Of a DNA stretch of 38,064 nucleotides, positions 12,041 through 26,218 are shown one piece after another. The stretch lies in the IMG/VR virus record IMGVR_UViG_3300020176_000037, positions 1-38,064 of that record. One strand, given 5' to 3'. A model generated the notes under the pieces. The model had not been told where the DNA came from. It saw only the letters and a program-made list of their open reading frames with translations, and did not search any database. The first letter of the stretch is position 1. Each line of letters starts with the position of its first letter. Origin of the DNA: a virus. The position numbers and the translations under genes were made by a program.

Positions 12041-12319
12041 TCAAAGATCCTCCTCGGTGTGCTTGATCTTCACGCTGACCTGACGCTCGGGGATGGCATC
12101 CAAGAACATGTCGTGAAGCTCGCCAAAGAGTTGGCGCTGGTATTCAAAAGTTTCGCTCCTTTTGATGTCCATGCCCCTGCTGACCGTAGTTCTACCTTTG
12201 CGGCGGTAAGTCCTAGTCCAAGATTGGTTGTAATTACGGTCGGCCTGCATTTCAGCCGTTTGAAAAGCCTTGGCGATCAAGTAGAGATCGGCAACGCTGC
12301 AGTCGATTTGAACTTGCAT
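12041..12319 (-). CDS. Early-region protein of unknown function with structured leader
   Basis: A 92-residue protein starting at ATG 12319 (MQVQIDCSVADLYLIAKAFQ). The frame is open to 12415, but the hairpin and stop of the previous gene place the true start here. It has Arg/Tyr-rich NQSWTRTYRRKGRTTVSRGM, then a helical QRQLFGELHDMFLDAIPERQ. The leader holds the longest GNRA hairpin of the family (12341-12358) and the ACCACCTCAACC segment before ATG, without a Shine-Dalgarno sequence. Function unknown. Confidence 0.65.
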   Translation of the reverse strand: MQVQIDCSVADLYLIAKAFQTAEMQADRNYNQSWTRTYRRKGRTTVSRGMDIKRSETFEYQRQLFGELHDMFLDAIPERQVSVKIKHTEEDL

Positions 12320-12340
12320 GGTTGAGGTGGTGATGGTGGT

Positions 12341-12358
12341 GGCCCTGTCTCCAGGGCC
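12341..12358 (-). promoter_or_regulatory. GNRA-tetraloop leader hairpin (GGCCCTG-GAGA-CAGGGCC)
   Basis: On the minus strand a perfect 7-bp stem is capped by GAGA. It lies in the 49-base gap between the 61-residue gene and ATG 12319. It is the only member of the family without its own operator-promoter and is probably internal to the operon. An ACC-rich, SD-less stretch leads to the start codon. Confidence 0.75.
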
Positions 12359-12368
12359 GTGGGTGTAA

Positions 12369-12554
12369 TCAGGCAACGGTGTCGATGAAGGCGTCAACAG
12401 CCTCAACACCATCAAGATCCATCAGACGGTTCAGAACAATGTCCAGAGCCTGGAAGGGCACCAGAGGCTGGTTGAACATCTGACGGTAAAGGCTGCGCAG
12501 GGTCTCGGAATCGAGGGTGGCAACGCGGGCGGTGAAGGCGGTGGCGACGGTCAT
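12369..12554 (-). CDS. 61-residue early protein of unknown function
   Basis: Read from ATG 12554 (MTVATAFTARVATLDSETLR); the open frame to 12632 runs through the promoter and leader and is not counted. Residues LRSLYRQMFNQPLVPFQALD and IVLNRLMDLDGVEAVDAFID are helical with a hydrophobic face, possibly a small helical bundle. It is the first gene behind the operator-promoter at 12604-12632, with a 43-base leader containing a GGGA-loop hairpin. Function unknown. Confidence 0.7.
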   Translation of the reverse strand: MTVATAFTARVATLDSETLRSLYRQMFNQPLVPFQALDIVLNRLMDLDGVEAVDAFIDTVA

Positions 12555-12574
12555 TGGTTTGAGGTGTTGAGTGT

Positions 12575-12594
12575 GGGAAGCGTCCCCGCCTCCC
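12575..12594 (-). promoter_or_regulatory. GNRA-tetraloop leader hairpin (GGGAGGCG-GGGA-CGCTTCCC)
   Basis: On the minus strand an 8-bp stem containing one G-U pair is capped by GGGA, a GNRA loop. It starts about +4 from the transcription start predicted by the promoter at 12604-12632. The sequence CACACTCAACACCTCAAACC separates it from ATG 12554, without Shine-Dalgarno. Confidence 0.75.
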
Positions 12595-12603
12595 GATGAA
12601 TTA

Positions 12604-12632
12604 AGTATGGCATACCAGAGGTGAGGGCGCAA
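12604..12632 (-). promoter_or_regulatory. Sigma70-type promoter with palindromic operator
   Basis: On the minus strand the -35 is TTGCGC (12632-12627), the spacer 17 bases, and the -10 CATACT (12609-12604). The palindrome GTATGGCATAC (12605-12615) covers the -10 and the end of the spacer, so bound protein would block RNA polymerase. It drives the 61-residue gene and the small genes behind it. Confidence 0.75.
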
Positions 12633-12644
12633 CCCCCCCCAGGA

Positions 12645-12890
12645 TCAATCGACGTAGAGGGGCTCCTCGTCATAGGCAGAGGGCTGCTCGCGGTAAGGAG
12701 ATTGGGTCCAGCCTTTGGTGCAACCACACTTGAGAGCGAAGGCCCAGTGCTCACGAGCAACGGCAGTGGTCAGCGTTTCGGTCTTCTCAAGCCCACCAAA
12801 AACGTTGACAGTCCAGATGGTGGTTTCATCGGTGCCAGCCTCGAAGATGAAGTTCTGAGAGCCGTTGGTCAGGGTGTGGATGGCGGTCAT
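12645..12890 (-). CDS. 81-residue early protein of unknown function
   Basis: MTAIHTLTNGSQNFIFEAGT, then TIWTVNVFGGLEKTETLTTA and REHWAFALKCGCTKG, ending YDEEPLYVD. The first part looks like a small antiparallel beta sheet. A CxC pair is present. It stands alone behind its own operator-promoter (12929-12957) with a 32-base leader holding a GAGA hairpin. No recognised family. Confidence 0.7.
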   Translation of the reverse strand: MTAIHTLTNGSQNFIFEAGTDETTIWTVNVFGGLEKTETLTTAVAREHWAFALKCGCTKGWTQSPYREQPSAYDEEPLYVD

Positions 12891-12907
12891 TGTGGTGTTG
12901 AGGTTGT

Positions 12908-12919
12908 GGGATCTCTCCC
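12908..12919 (-). promoter_or_regulatory. GNRA-tetraloop leader hairpin (GGGA-GAGA-TCCC)
   Basis: Minus-strand hairpin with a 4-bp stem and GAGA loop, starting about +4 from the predicted start of the 12929-12957 promoter. It is followed by CACAACCTCAACACCACA and ATG 12890. Confidence 0.75.
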
Positions 12920-12928
12920 GATGTCATA

Positions 12929-12957
12929 AGTATGGCATACCATCCGCAGATGGTCAA
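12929..12957 (-). promoter_or_regulatory. Sigma70-type promoter with palindromic operator
   Basis: Minus strand -35 TTGACC (12957-12952), 17-base spacer, -10 CATACT (12934-12929). Palindrome GTATGGCATAC at 12930-12940 overlaps the -10. The TGA inside the -35 is the stop codon of the 51-residue gene upstream. Confidence 0.8.
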
Positions 12958-13109
12958 CCTTCCAGGCGTTGAAGAGCTTTGCTCAGCCGGGCGTACATCT
13001 TGTCGTGCTGGGCCAGCTCTTCCTCGGACATGTAATCGGTGAACTCGGCCTCCATGCTGTTGAGCAAGATCAGGAGGTCGTCTTCTTTGAGGGTGAGGGT
13101 GGTGGTCAT
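12954..13109 (-). CDS. 51-residue acidic helical early protein
   Basis: ORF from ATG 13109 to TGA 12954: MTTTLTLKEDDLLILLNSME, then AEFTDYMSEEELAQHDKMYA and RLSKALQRLEG. It is strongly acidic and helical. It has its own operator-promoter and GAGA leader hairpin, like its neighbours. Its stop codon lies within the -35 of the next promoter. Such small acidic early proteins are common host-takeover candidates; function is unknown. Confidence 0.7.
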   Translation of the reverse strand: MTTTLTLKEDDLLILLNSMEAEFTDYMSEEELAQHDKMYARLSKALQRLEG

Positions 13110-13124
13110 TGTCTTGAGGGTTGT

Positions 13125-13136
13125 GCGGTCTCCCGC
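13125..13136 (-). promoter_or_regulatory. GNRA-tetraloop leader hairpin (GCGG-GAGA-CCGC)
   Basis: Minus-strand 4-bp stem with GAGA loop, about +4 from the start predicted by the promoter at 13146-13174. It is followed by ACAACCCTCAAGACA and ATG 13109, with no Shine-Dalgarno at normal distance. Confidence 0.75.
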
Positions 13137-13145
13137 TTGATCAAT

Positions 13146-13174
13146 AGTATGGCATACCAGGGGCTGGCTGGCAA
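13146..13174 (-). promoter_or_regulatory. Sigma70-type promoter with palindromic operator
   Basis: Minus strand -35 TTGCCA (13174-13169), 17-base spacer, -10 CATACT (13151-13146), with GTATGGCATAC at 13147-13157 overlapping the -10. Drives the 51-residue gene. Confidence 0.78.
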
Positions 13175-13191
13175 CCCCCGGACCTGGTGGA

Positions 13192-13788
13192 TCACTTCGG
13201 CTTGTTGGTGGAGTTATCGATCAGGTACTCCAGGCTGCTGGCGCTAGTGGTGCCGGTGTTGAACAGGCCGATCAGGTCGGATTCCTCCAGACCTTGCAGC
13301 ATGTCAATGCAACGCTTACGCCAAGCGATCAAATCGTTCAGGCGATCAACGCGGTCCTGGTCCTTGCCTGCCCATTCGGTCAGCCAGCCTTGGAAGAGAC
13401 CTAAGGACATTTTGAACTGGCGAAGCACTTGCTTAGGCGCCTTCTCAACGAACTGCTGGAGGCGCTTTTGCTGAGCAGCTTCCTGGGTGGCCTTGGCCTT
13501 AGCGCGACGCTCCACGTTGTGCTTGGGGAGGTTGCTGCAGTCGATGACGCGGCCGGTGGCTGTCTCGACAATCACGGTGTTGGAGTAGCCGCCGCACTGG
13601 CGGACGAGGCGCTGCAGATCGTTGCTGCCGGTGGTGTAGCTGCCACTTTTATTGATCGGGACGGCCAGGTGGCTGTAAGTCCTGACGCCTTCGCGCTTGG
13701 CCACGGTGCCGTTGCTGAGGGTGACGATGTAGCGGTGATGGTCGCCGTTGCGAAGCGCGCTGTACTTGACGGTTGCGGTGATGGTCAT
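13192..13788 (-). CDS. 198-residue early protein of unknown function
   Basis: MTITATVKYSALRNGDHHRY, then IVTLSNGTVAKREGVRTYSH: the first 75 residues are beta-rich and end near CSNLPKHNVERRAK. A long basic helix follows (KAKATQEAAQQKRLQQFVEK), then a helical region with FQGWLTEWAGKDQDRVDRLN. It is the largest gene with the shared operator-promoter and GAGA leader. The basic middle helix could contact nucleic acid, but this is only composition. No family recognised. Confidence 0.7.
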   Translation of the reverse strand: MTITATVKYSALRNGDHHRYIVTLSNGTVAKREGVRTYSHLAVPINKSGSYTTGSNDLQRLVRQCGGYSNTVIVETATGRVIDCSNLPKHNVERRAKAKATQEAAQQKRLQQFVEKAPKQVLRQFKMSLGLFQGWLTEWAGKDQDRVDRLNDLIAWRKRCIDMLQGLEESDLIGLFNTGTTSASSLEYLIDNSTNKPK

Positions 13789-13805
13789 TTGAGGTTTGAG
13801 GTTGT

Positions 13806-13817
13806 GCCGTCTCCGGC
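13806..13817 (-). promoter_or_regulatory. GNRA-tetraloop leader hairpin (GCCG-GAGA-CGGC)
   Basis: Minus-strand 4-bp stem with GAGA loop, about +5 from the start predicted by the promoter at 13828-13856. It is followed by ACAACCTCAAACCTCAA and ATG 13788. Confidence 0.75.
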
Positions 13818-13827
13818 TGATGCAATA

Positions 13828-13856
13828 AGTATGGCATACCAGAGGGAGGGCGTCAA
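13828..13856 (-). promoter_or_regulatory. Sigma70-type promoter with palindromic operator
   Basis: Minus strand -35 TTGACG (13856-13851), 17-base spacer, -10 CATACT (13833-13828). GTATGGCATAC at 13829-13839 overlaps the -10. The stop TGA of the upstream RHH gene is inside the -35. Confidence 0.8.
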
Positions 13857-14119
13857 CCCTCCGCTGCTAGCGCACAGATCACCGTGCAGATGATCGGCTC
13901 AAGCTGGTGTCTCGGTATCCCGCCGTACTGTCGGCTGACAGCGGTGATGGCACGGTCGATGCAGTCGCGGCCATTGCCCAGGGACGCGACGCGCTGCGGA
14001 TATAGGACACGCTCACGGATCAGCTCTTTGCGGGACATGCCGTGGGCGGCTGCCTCCATGTTCAGCCTGTTGCGTTCCTCAGGCGTGGCGTCAAATTCAA
14101 TGCGGCTCAGGTTGCTCAT
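13853..14119 (-). CDS. Ribbon-helix-helix-like DNA-binding protein
   Basis: An 88-residue protein: SRIEFDATPEERNRLNMEAA, then AHGMSRKELIRERVLYPQRV. A short strand, a helix, a GMSRKELIRE turn and a second helix form the RHH/CopG-type pattern. A second half of about 45 residues includes HQLEPIICTVICALAAEG. It lies directly upstream of the four operator-promoters, which makes it a candidate regulator of them. This is inference only. Its start overlaps the next upstream stop in TGATG. Confidence 0.65.
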   Translation of the reverse strand: MSNLSRIEFDATPEERNRLNMEAAAHGMSRKELIRERVLYPQRVASLGNGRDCIDRAITAVSRQYGGIPRHQLEPIICTVICALAAEG

Positions 14120-15343: not shown

Positions 15344-15364
15344 CGCAAAGGTGCCACGTTTGCG
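15344..15364. promoter_or_regulatory. 21-bp palindrome between divergent genes (candidate operator or origin element)
   Basis: CGCAAA-g-GTG-c-CAC-g-TTTGCG is symmetric about 15354, except for one unmatched pair (g/g). It directly abuts ATG 15343 of the RHH fusion protein and contains the GTG 15351 start of the divergent nuclease. The position is typical for autoregulation or origin binding by a dimeric RHH protein. Confidence 0.6.
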
Positions 15365-16028
15365 ACGCATACGCAAGCCATTTGTGAGACAACCGCTAGA
15401 TCCCGTGCCAGGGCTGGAGTTTTACCCCCTGCAGCACAAATACAGGCTGAACGGAGAATGGCTGCCGTACAACGTCAGCACCGTGCTTTCCTTTGACATG
15501 TCGCCCACCCAGCGGGCGGCCATCGAGCGCACAAAGGATGGCCCTGATGGATGGGCAGAAAGAGGCCGGACGATCCACCGCGTTCTGTGTGAGGAGTTCC
15601 TGCGCGGCGAGGGTTCGATCTATGACGAGAAGTGGGCACCGTGGATTGAGCCGCTGCTTGATGAGCCGCTGTTCAAGGGCGTCCAAACACTGGCGACTGA
15701 ATACGCGGTCTGCGACAAGATCAAGCGAATCGGCGGCAGCTTTGATTTTTTACTAGCTACGACAGATCCCAACGACAAAAGGGTAATTCTGGGCGACCTG
15801 AAGACGGTCTCATCTAAAAAGGGAGTCTCCAGCCGACGCCCAGCAACTGCCCAGCTCCAGGCCTACAGGAGCTTTCTTTCTGTACACCAGCCATCGCTGG
15901 TCGTAACAGATCTGGTCACAGTGGTCTGCGGCCCTGAGCGCACGCGGATCATCAACTCAGATCCTGAAGGGTGGCAGGAGTGGGAGGACGCTTGGGGACG
16001 TTTCAACGCCACCATTCCTGATTTTTGA
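15351..16028 (+). CDS. PDDEXK (RecB/Cas4-type) nuclease
   Basis: A 225-residue protein. The core is GGSFDFLLATTD, then RVILGDLKTVSSKKG and PATAQLQAYRSFL. These supply the acidic residue before the hairpin, the D-x-K pair, and the Q-L-Q-A-Y helix that mark RecB-family PDDEXK nucleases of phage recombination systems. N-terminal FYPLQHKYRLNGEWLPYNVS TVLSF is the usual entry of such exonucleases. Start is GTG 15351, with GTG 15384 or 15408 as alternatives. It likely resects DNA ends together with the annealing protein at 19925. Confidence 0.82.
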   Translation: MPRLRRIRKPFVRQPLDPVPGLEFYPLQHKYRLNGEWLPYNVSTVLSFDMSPTQRAAIERTKDGPDGWAERGRTIHRVLCEEFLRGEGSIYDEKWAPWIEPLLDEPLFKGVQTLATEYAVCDKIKRIGGSFDFLLATTDPNDKRVILGDLKTVSSKKGVSSRRPATAQLQAYRSFLSVHQPSLVVTDLVTVVCGPERTRIINSDPEGWQEWEDAWGRFNATIPDF

Positions 16029-17532: not shown

Positions 17533-17546
17533 TAGGCGAAAAAAAT

Positions 17547-17575
17547 GGGGGACGCGAGTCCCCCACCGTTACCCA
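17547..17575 (+). promoter_or_regulatory. Structured leader with CCCCCACYGTTACCCA box (copy 2)
   Basis: Perfect hairpin GGGGGAC-GCGA-GTCCCCC (17547-17564), with a GNRA loop, runs directly into CCCCCACCGTTACCCA (17560-17575). ATG 17590 follows after 14 bases, with no Shine-Dalgarno. On the minus strand the same hairpin is followed by A then seven T (17546-17539), the form of an intrinsic terminator for antisense transcription. Confidence 0.65.
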
Positions 17576-17589
17576 CTTGCACCTTACCG

Positions 17590-18747
17590 ATGAATCAACT
17601 GACAAAGCCAGAGTCAGACGAAATTTGCAGCGCCTACCCGCAGGGCGTCTTGGATCAATACAACGCCACCGAGCTGAACCAAATCGACAAGGTTCAGCAG
17701 GCTGGGCAGATCATGTCCAAGTCCAAGCACATGCTGAACTGCGAAGTGATTCGCCTGAAGCTCCTGCTGGATGGACAAGATCAAGTCGAAGGATTATTGG
17801 CGACAGGCAATGGCGGTCAGCAGCCGTCTCGTTTTTGGGAAGGCGCTCGCGCCGGGCACTTTGGCGATGAAGTCAAATCATGGGCTGACAAAGACGACCG
17901 CAAGAAAGTCCAGCGATTGATTACAGCCAATGAAGCAGCTGCCAAACTGCTTGCCCCATGCGTGGCAAATGCCACGCATGACTTGCCTTTTGAGTTGGCA
18001 CGCAAACGCGGCATGGGGCAAACGGCCCTTTGCACTTATCAGAGATTGTTCCCTGAAGCGCGTGCAATGGCCGACCATTACTTCACGGTGACGGGCGAGC
18101 TGCGCAGCGACATGCTGCAAGAGTTTGAGCAAATCATTCGAGAGTTTCCGGAACGCACAGAGTTTGTTCTAAAAGGCATTACTGAACGCACGCTCGACGT
18201 GCCATCAAAATTCAAAGACCTGAAAGCTGAATGGAGAGCACAGGCAAGGGAACAAAAAGCAGCAGAAGAAGCGTTGGCACAAGCTGCCAAACTTGCAGCT
18301 GCTGAAAAGAAAGAAGAAGACTTGAATGATTACACCCCAGACGTTGACACTCCATCCAAGGTCGGCGATCAAGCTGCTGATGTAACTGCACGCAGAACAC
18401 CATCCCGCGCTTGGTATCAATCACAGGCTGGAAAGCAACAAGTCAGCGAAGTGGTGGGCAACCTTGATAAGCCCTTGCCTGATTTGATTGAAGGCTTGAT
18501 GGAGCTGAGCAATCAACTCAAAGACCAGTTTGCGCATTCCAGCGTTATGCCTAATTACGCAGAGTTTTGGGCTGGCTATGACCAGTTCTTCTATACGCCT
18601 TCAACGCATAGAGCGAAATGGGGCCGCAAACGAAGGCTTGGACGAATGCAGGATTTGCGTAAAAAGATGCTGGAAGTTGCTGGAGAGCTTGAGGTTTACA
18701 TCGCCTCAACCCAGCCTCCCGCAAACATCGAGTATCCGGAGGGCTGA
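17590..18747 (+). CDS. 385-residue helical protein of unknown function
   Basis: Read from ATG 17590 (MNQLTKPESDEICSAYPQGV). Mostly helical, with a Lys/Glu/Ala coiled coil at about 215-250 (AQAREQKAAEEALAQAAKLA). A basic GRKRRLGRMQDLRKKMLEVA segment lies near the C-terminus. It shares its leader motif with the ParB-like gene just upstream, which suggests a joint role. The segment ELARKRGMGQTALCTYQRLF could be a helix-turn-helix, but this is weak. No family recognised. Confidence 0.65.
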   Translation: MNQLTKPESDEICSAYPQGVLDQYNATELNQIDKVQQAGQIMSKSKHMLNCEVIRLKLLLDGQDQVEGLLATGNGGQQPSRFWEGARAGHFGDEVKSWADKDDRKKVQRLITANEAAAKLLAPCVANATHDLPFELARKRGMGQTALCTYQRLFPEARAMADHYFTVTGELRSDMLQEFEQIIREFPERTEFVLKGITERTLDVPSKFKDLKAEWRAQAREQKAAEEALAQAAKLAAAEKKEEDLNDYTPDVDTPSKVGDQAADVTARRTPSRAWYQSQAGKQQVSEVVGNLDKPLPDLIEGLMELSNQLKDQFAHSSVMPNYAEFWAGYDQFFYTPSTHRAKWGRKRRLGRMQDLRKKMLEVAGELEVYIASTQPPANIEYPEG

Positions 18748-19547: not shown

Positions 19548-19980
19548 CTCGTTCACGTTCACTGTTCTCGGAAAGCCTGCCCCACAAGGGAGCAAGCGCC
19601 ACGTCGGTCGAGGCGTCATGGTCGAATCCTCCAAAAGGTGCAAGCCATGGCGTCAAGACGTGCGCATCACTGCTCTTGAAGCAAGGCCTGAAGGCTGGGC
19701 CGATTTGCTGGACAAACCGATCTTTGTCTCTGTCACTTTTGTTTTTGCACGGCCTAAAAATCACTTCCGCACGAATGGTGAGCTGAAACCCTCAGCGCCT
19801 GAACATTGCACCGCTCGTATTGGCGATGTCGATAAGTTGGCGAGATCGATCCTCGACAGCTGTGCCGACGGAGTTTTATACGCAGCAGATGAACAGGTCA
19901 TCAGCCTCATTGCCCACAAACGTTATGCCAACACCAGAGAACAACCCTGCGCCATCATCACCGTCACAGCCCTTCCCTAA
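19513..19980 (+). CDS. rusA: RusA-type Holliday junction resolvase
   Basis: A protein of about 155 residues: FTFTVLGKPAPQGSKRHVGR at the start, then GDVDKLARSILDSCADGVLY followed by AADEQVISLIAHKRY. The paired Asp of GDVDK, the following Lys, and the Asp of AADEQV match the catalytic acidic cluster of RusA. It would cut branched recombination or packaging intermediates. No ATG lies before the conserved part. TTG 19513, inside the previous gene, is taken as start with low certainty. Confidence 0.85.
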   Translation: MTEHSASYPSSNSFTFTVLGKPAPQGSKRHVGRGVMVESSKRCKPWRQDVRITALEARPEGWADLLDKPIFVSVTFVFARPKNHFRTNGELKPSAPEHCTARIGDVDKLARSILDSCADGVLYAADEQVISLIAHKRYANTREQPCAIITVTALP

Positions 19981-20629
19981 CCTTGGCGATGTCATCACCA
20001 CCGATGATGTCAGCCAAAAGGGTACGGGCAAATACACGGCGGATTACGTCAACTGGTGCCGCACGATGCACCTGCTGCATCTACACGCCCCAGGGTTTCA
20101 GTTTCATCTAGCTCATTACGTCGATAGTGGTCACGTTTGGAAAGCTCCGAACGGCACTGCTTACGTTGTTGGCTATTTCACCGGGCCTGATGGCCAGCGC
20201 ACTCCTGACTTCCCTCAGGCTGTCATGGACAACCGCAACAGTGCGATTGCCTTTGACAAGGTCAGCGCACGCGATCTGACAGACAGCCACCGCCGTTGCC
20301 TCTGCACTGCAGCAGCTGCACACTTTGGGCTTGCCTGGCAGTTGTGGGCACGCGAAGAGGTTGAAAATCCTCACCGCGAAGAGAAGAAGGCAAAGCCTGC
20401 AGCTGGGCCATCTGTTGCCGGTGTATCTAAAGAGGAACAGCCTCTTTCAGATAGCGAACGCAGCTTCCTGCTGCAGTGGATCGGCGACATGCCCCAAGAC
20501 AACCGCGAGGCTTTCTGTAGAGCGTTCCGCTCGAAGTTCAACCTGGCAGCCAACGCTAAGGTTGCTCCGGCAATCACAAGTAAAAAGCACGAGGCTTGGA
20601 TTCAAGCCGTCATGAATGAGTATGCCTGA
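19925..20629 (+). CDS. Sak3/DUF1071-like single-strand annealing protein
   Basis: A 234-residue protein from ATG 19925 (MPTPENNPAPSSPSQPFPNL). GTGKYTADYVNWCRTMHLLH, then FPQAVMDNRNSAIAFDKVSA and DLTDSHRRCLCTAAAAHFGL AWQLW, follow the DUF1071/Sak3 pattern (YxxxxxW, a Gly/aromatic VxG strand, PVMDxRNxAI, DxxxxxMRCLxKAxAxFGL). Such proteins anneal single-stranded DNA during phage recombination. The C-terminal 70 residues form a separate helical domain (SFLLQWIGDMPQDNREAFCR). Partner of the PDDEXK nuclease. Confidence 0.75.
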   Translation: MPTPENNPAPSSPSQPFPNLGDVITTDDVSQKGTGKYTADYVNWCRTMHLLHLHAPGFQFHLAHYVDSGHVWKAPNGTAYVVGYFTGPDGQRTPDFPQAVMDNRNSAIAFDKVSARDLTDSHRRCLCTAAAAHFGLAWQLWAREEVENPHREEKKAKPAAGPSVAGVSKEEQPLSDSERSFLLQWIGDMPQDNREAFCRAFRSKFNLAANAKVAPAITSKKHEAWIQAVMNEYA

Positions 20630-21304: not shown

Positions 21305-21333
21305 TTGCCAATGGCATACCACCTGTGTATATT
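21305..21333 (+). promoter_or_regulatory. Promoter with shared operator
   Basis: TTGCCA (21305-21310), 17-base spacer, TATATT (21328-21333). ATGGCATACCA (21311-21321) directly follows the -35. Start near 21340, four to six bases before the GGGG-GAGA-CCCC hairpin. Confidence 0.82.
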
Positions 21334-21344
21334 GGAGGTGTTCA

Positions 21345-21378
21345 GGGGGAGACCCCACACCTCCCGCCCACAGGGCGG
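21345..21378 (+). promoter_or_regulatory. GNRA-tetraloop hairpin (GGGG-GAGA-CCCC) and second hairpin in leader
   Basis: GGGG-GAGA-CCCC at 21345-21356 is followed by CCGCCC-ACA-GGGCGG at 21364-21378. At DNA level GGAGGTGT (21334-21341) also pairs with ACACCTCC (21357-21364), but the first arm would lie mostly upstream of the predicted transcript start. ATG 21387 follows (CTTGAAA before it), without a Shine-Dalgarno sequence. Confidence 0.75.
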
Positions 21379-21386
21379 CCTTGAAA

Positions 21387-21635
21387 ATGAAGATCCTTTC
21401 TTCGACTGGCACTGCTTTCACCGAGGCTCAGCTGGAAGCAGCCTTTGACAAGGTGGCTGATCCTGCTGATTGGCGGAATCCCATCTATCAGGTGGTCGAT
21501 CGTGATGATGTGCATGTGACCGTGTGCGCCGTGCGCCACTTCACTGCTGCACCGATCGAGGTGATTGACCTTGAGTGGGGCGATGAGTTCATGATCAAGT
21601 CTCCGGGCTACCGTCTCGGACCGGCAGGAGCCTGA
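21387..21635 (+). CDS. 82-residue operator-controlled protein of unknown function
   Basis: MKILSSTGTAFTEAQLEAAF, then DKVADPADWRNPIYQVVDRD and DVHVTVCAVRHFTAAPIEVI. A small acidic alpha-beta protein. It is a single-gene transcript: operator-promoter 21305-21333, GNRA leader, and terminator 21635-21653. This arrangement is the same as for the small minus-strand genes at 12.4-13.8 kb. Function unknown. Confidence 0.7.
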   Translation: MKILSSTGTAFTEAQLEAAFDKVADPADWRNPIYQVVDRDDVHVTVCAVRHFTAAPIEVIDLEWGDEFMIKSPGYRLGPAGA

Positions 21636-25655: not shown

Positions 25656-26007
25656 GAAGTCAGAGCGGTTTACAGCAGGTCAGCTGTGGATTGAGAGGAA
25701 CCGCAGGAGAGAGGGGCCGCCCATTGTTTACACCGTAATGAACGGGACCAGCGCCAGGCCGTTTACAGATACAAAGGCCATTTTGAAGTGGGTCAAGTGG
25801 CCCAAAGGTACGCCCACAGGTGACGCGCTACGCGATTGGCTTTCCTCGTTTGAGCAAAAACAAGAGGCACCCGCGCCAAAACTTGATTGGGACAAGATCA
25901 AAGCTGAAGGTTTTGGACCTGAAGCCCATGAAGAGAAGACCGTTGACCCAATCACCGGAGAGGAGATACCGGAAGACCCAATCACCGGCACCAAGATGGT
26001 TATTTGA
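25654..26007 (+). CDS. 117-residue protein of unknown function
   Basis: Read from ATG 25654 (MKSERFTAGQLWIERNRRRE). IVYTVMNGTSARPFTDTKAI, then LKWVKWPKGTPTGDALRDWL, and an acidic C-terminus with a direct repeat DPITGEEIPEDPITGTK. Compact alpha-beta N-terminal part. It is transcribed alone on the plus strand between minus genes, so its promoter must lie inside the divergent gene. Recalled as a common small gene beside tail fibres in cyanophages; function unknown. Confidence 0.6.
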   Translation: MKSERFTAGQLWIERNRRREGPPIVYTVMNGTSARPFTDTKAILKWVKWPKGTPTGDALRDWLSSFEQKQEAPAPKLDWDKIKAEGFGPEAHEEKTVDPITGEEIPEDPITGTKMVI

Positions 26008-26218
26008 AGGGAATGGCAGGCCCCGTGGCTTTGGGCAGCTCAGGAACTTCAGGGACAGGCACTTGGTCAAGGATCGTTTTTGTCAGCTCTAGCTTCAGCT
26101 CGCTGGCGTAGTTTTTGACCATCGATGGCACGCGCGTGTAAGCCATCACGCCCATGACGGCCATGGTGCCAGACATGACAAAGCCAAGAACACCCAGCAG
26201 GTTGTAGACCTTTTGCAT
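26000..26218 (-). CDS. Small single-span membrane protein
   Basis: A 72-residue protein: MQKVYNLLGVLGFVMSGTMA, then VMGVMAYTRVPSMVKNYASE, KTILDQVPVPEVPELPKATG. One N-terminal membrane span, an amphipathic helix and a Pro-rich tail. It lies after the terminator at 26231-26257 in transcription order, so it needs read-through or its own promoter. Function unknown. Confidence 0.65.
   Translation of the reverse strand: MQKVYNLLGVLGFVMSGTMAVMGVMAYTRVPSMVKNYASELKLELTKTILDQVPVPEVPELPKATGPAIPFK

Follow-up and report, generated by a model that had tools for sequence, protein, structure and literature searches.

Morons of lambdoid phages are accessory genes that carry their own promoter and are inserted in the phage genome. 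The PeSL elements of T4-like phages were reportedly described by Arbiol et al. in 2010 and Comeau et al. in 2014. In the passages that cite them, PeSLs (promoter early stem-loop) are composite promoter-terminator motifs of T4-like myoviruses, in which an intergenic promoter together with a stem-loop is proposed to shuffle genes between related phages (PMC4503421; PMC5931544). Archaeal viruses, according to the available excerpt, place diverse and mostly unrelated small genes behind a near-identical promoter region with a putative common repressor; these regulons have TATA/BRE promoters and the wHTH regulator Aca8, and some of their products are proven anti-CRISPRs (PMC11065993).

We analysed a 38,064-nucleotide stretch of viral DNA, referred to here as the window (IMG/VR record IMGVR_UViG_3300020176_000037, positions 1–38,064), of which an earlier note had singled out a row of four small genes as an array of exchangeable cassettes. 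The structural genes of the window (tail, portal, and terminase) are of the lambda-like siphovirus type, not those of a T4-like myovirus. We put the probability at roughly 75% that the locus is an exchangeable accessory cassette array in a lambda-like cyanosiphovirus, with one composite module per cassette; this reading, drawn from sequence comparisons, includes a presumed route of exchange and presumed roles for the hairpin and the products. Each module would combine a strong host-type promoter and an operator, to which a regulatory protein (most likely a phage repressor) would bind, with a GNRA hairpin right at the start of the mRNA, followed by an unstructured, A/C-rich leader devoid of a Shine-Dalgarno sequence. 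A stem-loop around the −35 box, overlapping the end of the previous gene, would often be part of the module as well.

Unlike morons, the many genes of this locus stand in an array behind a common operator, hairpin, and leader. The PeSL appears to be the nearest concept, alike in function and, by description, in layout. Both unite a promoter and a stem-loop in one intergenic composite, the layouts being compared by description only, and comparative evidence ties the present module to the shuffling of neighbouring genes. Whereas PeSLs belong to T4-like myoviruses, the module resides in a lambda-like siphovirus and adds a shared operator and a 5′-UTR GNRA hairpin with a leader lacking a Shine-Dalgarno sequence, so that the operator, the GNRA leader, and the phage group seem to be the new elements. 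As in the archaeal anti-defence regulons, diverse small genes stand behind one conserved regulatory sequence. However, the excerpt on those regulons describes no 5′ hairpin module such as the one found here, and it reports proven anti-CRISPRs, of which there are none among the products of the present cassettes (PMC11065993). The array and its borders are composed as follows.

13853–14119, minus strand: left border gene, ribbon-helix-helix (RHH) protein of 88 residues with a conserved C-terminal part; candidate regulator
13789–13856, minus strand: control module of unit 4; −35 box TTGACG 13856–13851, operator 13828–13840, hairpin GCCGGAGACGGC 13817–13806, leader 13805–13789
13192–13788, minus strand: unit 4 gene, 198 residues, ATG at 13788
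13110–13174, minus strand: control module of unit 3; −35 box TTGCCA 13174–13169, operator 13146–13158, hairpin GCGGGAGACCGC 13136–13125, leader 13124–13110
12954–13109, minus strand: unit 3 gene, 51 residues, ATG at 13109
12891–12957, minus strand: control module of unit 2; −35 box TTGACC 12957–12952, operator 12929–12941, hairpin GGGAGAGATCCC 12919–12908, leader 12907–12891
12645–12890, minus strand: unit 2 gene, 81 residues, ATG at 12890
12555–12632, minus strand: control module of unit 1; −35 box TTGCGC, operator 12604–12616, hairpin GGGAGGCGGGGACGCTTCCC 12594–12575, leader 12574–12555
12369–12554, minus strand: unit 1 gene, 61 residues, ATG at 12554
12323–12372, minus strand: right border, operator-less GAGA-hairpin leader of the next gene, where identity between phages resumes

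As the earlier note had proposed for 12369–13856, the four units (61, 81, 51, and 198 residues) share one architecture, and all lie on the minus strand. Their common order is TTG-N17-CATACT, 9–10 nt, a GNRA hairpin, an A/C-rich leader of 15–20 nt, and ATG, with the TTG-N17-CATACT spacing constant in all four; a promoter scan of the window flagged three of them. The −35 box of unit 2, TTGACC, overlaps the stop codon of unit 3. The operator GGTATGCCATAC occurs exactly at 12605–12616, 12930–12941, 13147–13158, and 13829–13840, a match count that none of 100 shuffles reached, and the 13-mer GGTATGCCATACT, which takes in the −10 box, was found in 4 copies against 0.001 expected in 38 kb. The claim that the leaders lack a Shine-Dalgarno sequence holds, none of the four units having a Shine-Dalgarno 4-mer there; the same is true for all five window cassettes and for 95% of 93 modules, whereas one is present in 36% of the other genes sampled from this phage. 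The proteins of the four units were likewise found to be unrelated when compared with each other, and they proved as unrecognisable as described, with no Pfam match and no convincing PHROG match. The gene beyond the array (12041–12322) has a GAGA-hairpin leader, GGCCCTG-GAGA-CAGGGCC at 12341–12358, with no operator, a hint that the hairpin serves a function independent of the promoter.

To follow the locus among relatives, we fetched and compared the regions from 15 virus records with portal proteins at 72–99% identity. In 13 of the 15 records, the left neighbour of the locus is the RHH gene; as for the two exceptions, one contig starts inside the locus (G011), and the other is without a detected RHH gene (G005). 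On the right side, the relatives carry the same small genes, then the terminase. Between these conserved flanks the sets of cassettes differ. The cassettes of G019, starting with MTTFLTTAQ, MTLIETTNN, MSMFGYPF (operator-less), and MNLSTFFAE, are all absent from the window, G014 has genes of 133 and 129 residues, and G021 has cassettes starting with MTAQERLAR and MTAFEIAFV. Exceptions are unit 1, shared with G011, and a homologue of unit 2 in G016. G009 represents an empty site, with no cassette and 79 nt from the stop codon of the RHH gene to the next gene. The turnover of genes between conserved leaders, which the earlier note had suggested looking for in related phages, is thus near-complete; neither the same genes in the same order among the relatives nor an assignment of all products to structural functions was found.

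Since the operator sits between or on the promoter hexamers, repression is its simplest reading, and a repressor likely acts at this predicted site. In some promoters, a second GGTATGCC or its reverse complement lies at 10–11, 19–22, or 33 bp; these distances are whole helical turns, the pattern to be anticipated when protein dimers line up along one side of the DNA. RHH dimers recognise short, tandemly arranged sites, which the tandem copies at 10–11 bp would fit, and the RHH gene, the best candidate for the regulator, is found in 25 of 30 module-bearing records and, where present, always directly before the array. It is therefore possible, as a refinement of the main reading that we hold with some reserve, that the RHH protein, like Aca or an antitoxin-type repressor, is the regulator of the operator. 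Yet the strand with which it is predicted to contact DNA exists in two versions, SRIEFDAT and VRVDLRLT, with the same operator, and operators are present in G005 and phage S-CBS3, where no RHH homologue was detected. A search with the RHH protein in annotated phage records gave no match. In promoters from five loci (L016, L028, L056, L083, and L094), the spacer between the −35 and −10 boxes holds two GGTATGCC copies at a distance of exactly 11 bp.

The hairpins of the window, GCCG-GAGA-CGGC, GCGG-GAGA-CCGC, GGGA-GAGA-TCCC, and GGGAGGCG-GGGA-CGCTTCCC, fold as had been claimed and are positioned where the mRNA is predicted to begin. The fetched loci contain 156 distinct operator sites, and 71 of these have a strict 4-bp GNRA hairpin within 45 nt downstream, versus 0.5 in shuffles. 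When sequences were chosen by GAGA at the expected distance, with pairing not required, the flanking pairs 1–4 form in 90–98% of them and the fifth pair in 32%. In a 29-row alignment, the four pairs are changed on both sides in 28 cells, and the covariation score of the hairpin is 0.68 versus 0.27, with none of 500 shuffles scoring as high. Judged by this covariation, the hairpin is a conserved RNA structure. It may stabilise or protect a short mRNA, or aid initiation independent of a Shine-Dalgarno sequence. Scans of the window revealed no known RNA family in Rfam and no tRNA. Upstream of the hairpin, a stem of at least 5 bp surrounds the −35 box in 27% of modules compared with 4% in shuffles, and the stop codon of the preceding gene often falls inside the TTGA of this box. 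Elsewhere in the window, at 17546–17589, an 8-bp GNRA hairpin without operator, TGGGGGAC-GCGA-GTCCCCCA, precedes a likely start codon at 17590; this further hairpin leader is a sign that the open reading frame at 17545 has been called too long.

A scan of IMG/VR with TTG-N13-GGTATGCCATACT returned at least 119 stretches, most of them with the same hairpin, leader, and start codon and some of them plain chance or coding matches; the module is present at at least about 100 IMG/VR loci. By clustering, at least 47 gene families stand behind 123 modules, and at least 39, mutually unrelated, behind 93 modules after stricter filtering. Because these loci were fetched with the exact operator, operator conservation is built into the set, and the diversity of hairpins, leaders, and genes is not. 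Among the matches listed, a single gene was found behind seven hairpins, homologues of unit 1 occur in L072 and L112 behind different hairpins, and a homologue of unit 3 occurs in L047 (dN 0.03, dS 0.17). The family of unit 2 is present in at least eight other loci, and a search for relatives of unit 4 in IMG/VR returned none. For units 1, 2, 3, and 5, comparison with homologues gives dN values well below dS, so that these are real genes. The relatives are metagenomic contigs, any single one of which may be chimaeric, though the pattern recurs in many.

Two observations concern individual loci of this collection. The unit 2 homologues of L032 and L106 differ abruptly at the C-terminus (EEPLYVD versus DDNRWEAELALAQG), as if the ends of genes had also recombined. 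In L030, L031, L049, L057, and L077, the operator-promoter lies directly before a conserved gene (MAVTATFVFARPKNHF...) that looks RusA-like. No hairpin is present there, and the ATG follows the −10 box at a distance of about 10 nt, which marks a regulon member with little or no leader.

The products of the cassettes have a median length of 74 residues. For 52 representatives, Pfam matches were obtained for three families, with one member each, and 14 PHROG matches were mostly to unnamed groups, one being a methyltransferase-like gene without operator. PADLOC, with a library of defence rather than anti-defence models, gave no convincing match. The structure model of unit 2 (pLDDT 77, moderate confidence) has a β4-α fold without a confident match in PDB and BFVD, and that of unit 4 (pLDDT 43.5) is unusable. 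As almost no product matches a known family, a role in host takeover or anti-defence is something we infer from small size, rapid turnover, and individual promoters; it is plausible, and the products would be accessory proteins made early and directed at the host or its defences. The anti-defence hypothesis gains from the parallel with the archaeal viruses, whose anti-defence genes are, as far as the excerpt goes, recognisable by a common early promoter region (PMC11065993). A competing view, which we regard as possible but not favoured, holds that the genes of the array are metabolic helpers or serve routine phage functions, either early ones or ones related to replication. The position of the locus between replication and packaging genes would agree with it, and so would the locus of G002, which has a methyltransferase-like gene and a putative PAPS reductase, so named from sequence resemblance. 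However, the median of 74 residues and the near lack of Pfam or PHROG matches speak against it, and near-complete turnover even at 99% identical portals is unusual for core functions.

The comparison with the nearest relative, G019 (portal 99% identical), locates the exchange. Identity to the window is 93% from 14997 to 13782, stops 6 nt past the start of unit 4 (13788), gives way to unrelated genes, and is 90% again from 12372, at the end of unit 1. Where two modules have a hairpin in common but different genes, the identical stretch breaks off somewhere from the hairpin to a few bases beyond the ATG, with 13–18 nt before the ATG as the commonest position. The spacer is more similar when the upstream gene is shared (0.64 versus 0.50 without sharing), and the leader when the downstream gene is shared (0.59 versus 0.42), these being descriptive means over non-independent pairs. 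Together with the breakpoints, these similarities place many crossovers inside the operator-hairpin block. At the level of sequence, the comparisons show that the module is conserved while the genes turn over, with breakpoints in or beside it.

Could the leaders be alike through shared functional constraint or gene conversion, the genes being exchanged by illegitimate recombination without involvement of the module? The operator, hairpin, and leader are probably functional and hence constrained, and the right flank, with its operator-less hairpin, turns over too. We nevertheless consider this explanation unlikely, given that the 39-nt leader of unit 4 is identical in L114, L117, and L088 and so precedes four unrelated genes, although the same phages do equally well with many other leaders, that the spacer tracks the upstream gene and the leader the downstream gene, and that the breakpoints are located at the module. 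An integron-like array, or one moved by a site-specific recombinase or transposon, would share the small exchangeable cassettes arranged head-to-tail, the empty site, and the relocated cassette, but is highly improbable in view of a promoter in every cassette, no integrase or transposase among the annotated genes of the window, and breakpoints varying from the hairpin to just past the ATG.

Exchange of cassettes at the module, our preferred reading, probably proceeds by Red-like recombination of the phage, for which the window encodes two candidate proteins.

15351–16028, plus strand: exonuclease-like gene, recombination; presumed role in cassette exchange
19820–20629, plus strand: Sak-like single-strand annealing protein; presumed role in cassette exchange

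The repeated module would offer short homology to the exonuclease and the annealing protein, and an incoming gene would join the array with common control in place from the outset. Both proteins occur in the window and in nearly all module-bearing relatives; of 16 module-bearing virus contigs checked, 15 gave a match to the Sak-like protein, a weak or partial one in five cases. The open reading frame of the annealing protein (19820–20629) probably starts near residue 50, as its PHROG match sets in at residue 52 and in-frame stops interrupt the aligned stretch in several relatives.

Cassette exchange at the module might, more broadly and with a little less than even odds in our estimate, make the module a universal docking address in this family of cyanosiphoviruses, where any gene arriving with the module joins a fixed array and is immediately subject to one phage repressor and a standard 5′ leader. 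The cassette pool would then be an undescribed shared reservoir of host-takeover and anti-defence proteins against picocyanobacteria, minable by the module sequence alone. The breakpoints indicate how phages may swap accessory genes singly while keeping correct expression. The operator and GNRA leader can serve as a sequence bait, which retrieved at least 39 families from viral metagenomes, almost none of them with a match in family databases; should their products target picocyanobacteria, it would open a direct route to host-takeover and anti-defence genes in very abundant marine phototrophs.

A further cassette lies outside the array.

21305–21386, plus strand: module of the fifth cassette; TTGCCA 21305–21310, operator copy 21309–21320, TATATT 21328–21333, hairpin GGGGGAGACCCC 21345–21356
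21387–21635, plus strand: gene of the fifth cassette, 82 residues

The earlier note had taken the gene at 21387 for a fifth cassette of the same kind placed elsewhere. Its hairpin and its separate location stand; its promoter differs (TTGCCA-N17-TATATT), and the operator is in the spacer. Among the matches listed, homologues in L016, L039, and L069 reside in the main array beside the RHH gene, with the same kind of leader, and in the window and L134 the gene is found on the opposite strand, in another transcription unit. By these positions, the fifth cassette relocates between phages. Together with the turnover, the empty site, and the identical leaders, this relocation gives good support to the original proposal of an exchangeable-cassette array. 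A search with the protein in annotated phage records gave no match. In the leader of the fifth cassette, the GNRA hairpin is followed by another one, CCGCYC-loop-GRGCGG (21357–21386), whose bases vary but still pair, as also observed in L034, L039, L060, and L069.

The nearest isolates by portal protein are KBS-S-2A (75%), S-H1, MED4-117, and MED4-184, phages of Synechococcus WH7803 and Prochlorococcus MED4, and on the basis of this kinship the host of the window virus is probably a picocyanobacterium. The module was not found in these four isolates. A search for hosts in genome contigs gave three matches, of which L125 and L127 look like chance matches and were set aside. The third, L126 (PAFU01000001.1, a marine MAG contig), has a genuine module together with the RHH gene and the terminase of this phage group; binned in a gammaproteobacterial MAG, it is probably a misbinned phage contig or a free phage in the sample. 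A module match in S-SZBM1 lies inside a coding gene and was taken as chance.

The only isolate found with the module, in one clear copy, is S-CBS3 (NC_015465.1, locus L132; host Synechococcus CB0202). Its gp38 is a small gene preceded by the same promoter, operator, and hairpin, but the hairpin loop is not GNRA, and no RHH homologue was found in this isolate. The annotated start of gp38 (25863–26129) falls inside the operator, and the module would place the start at 26075, resulting in a protein of 70 residues.
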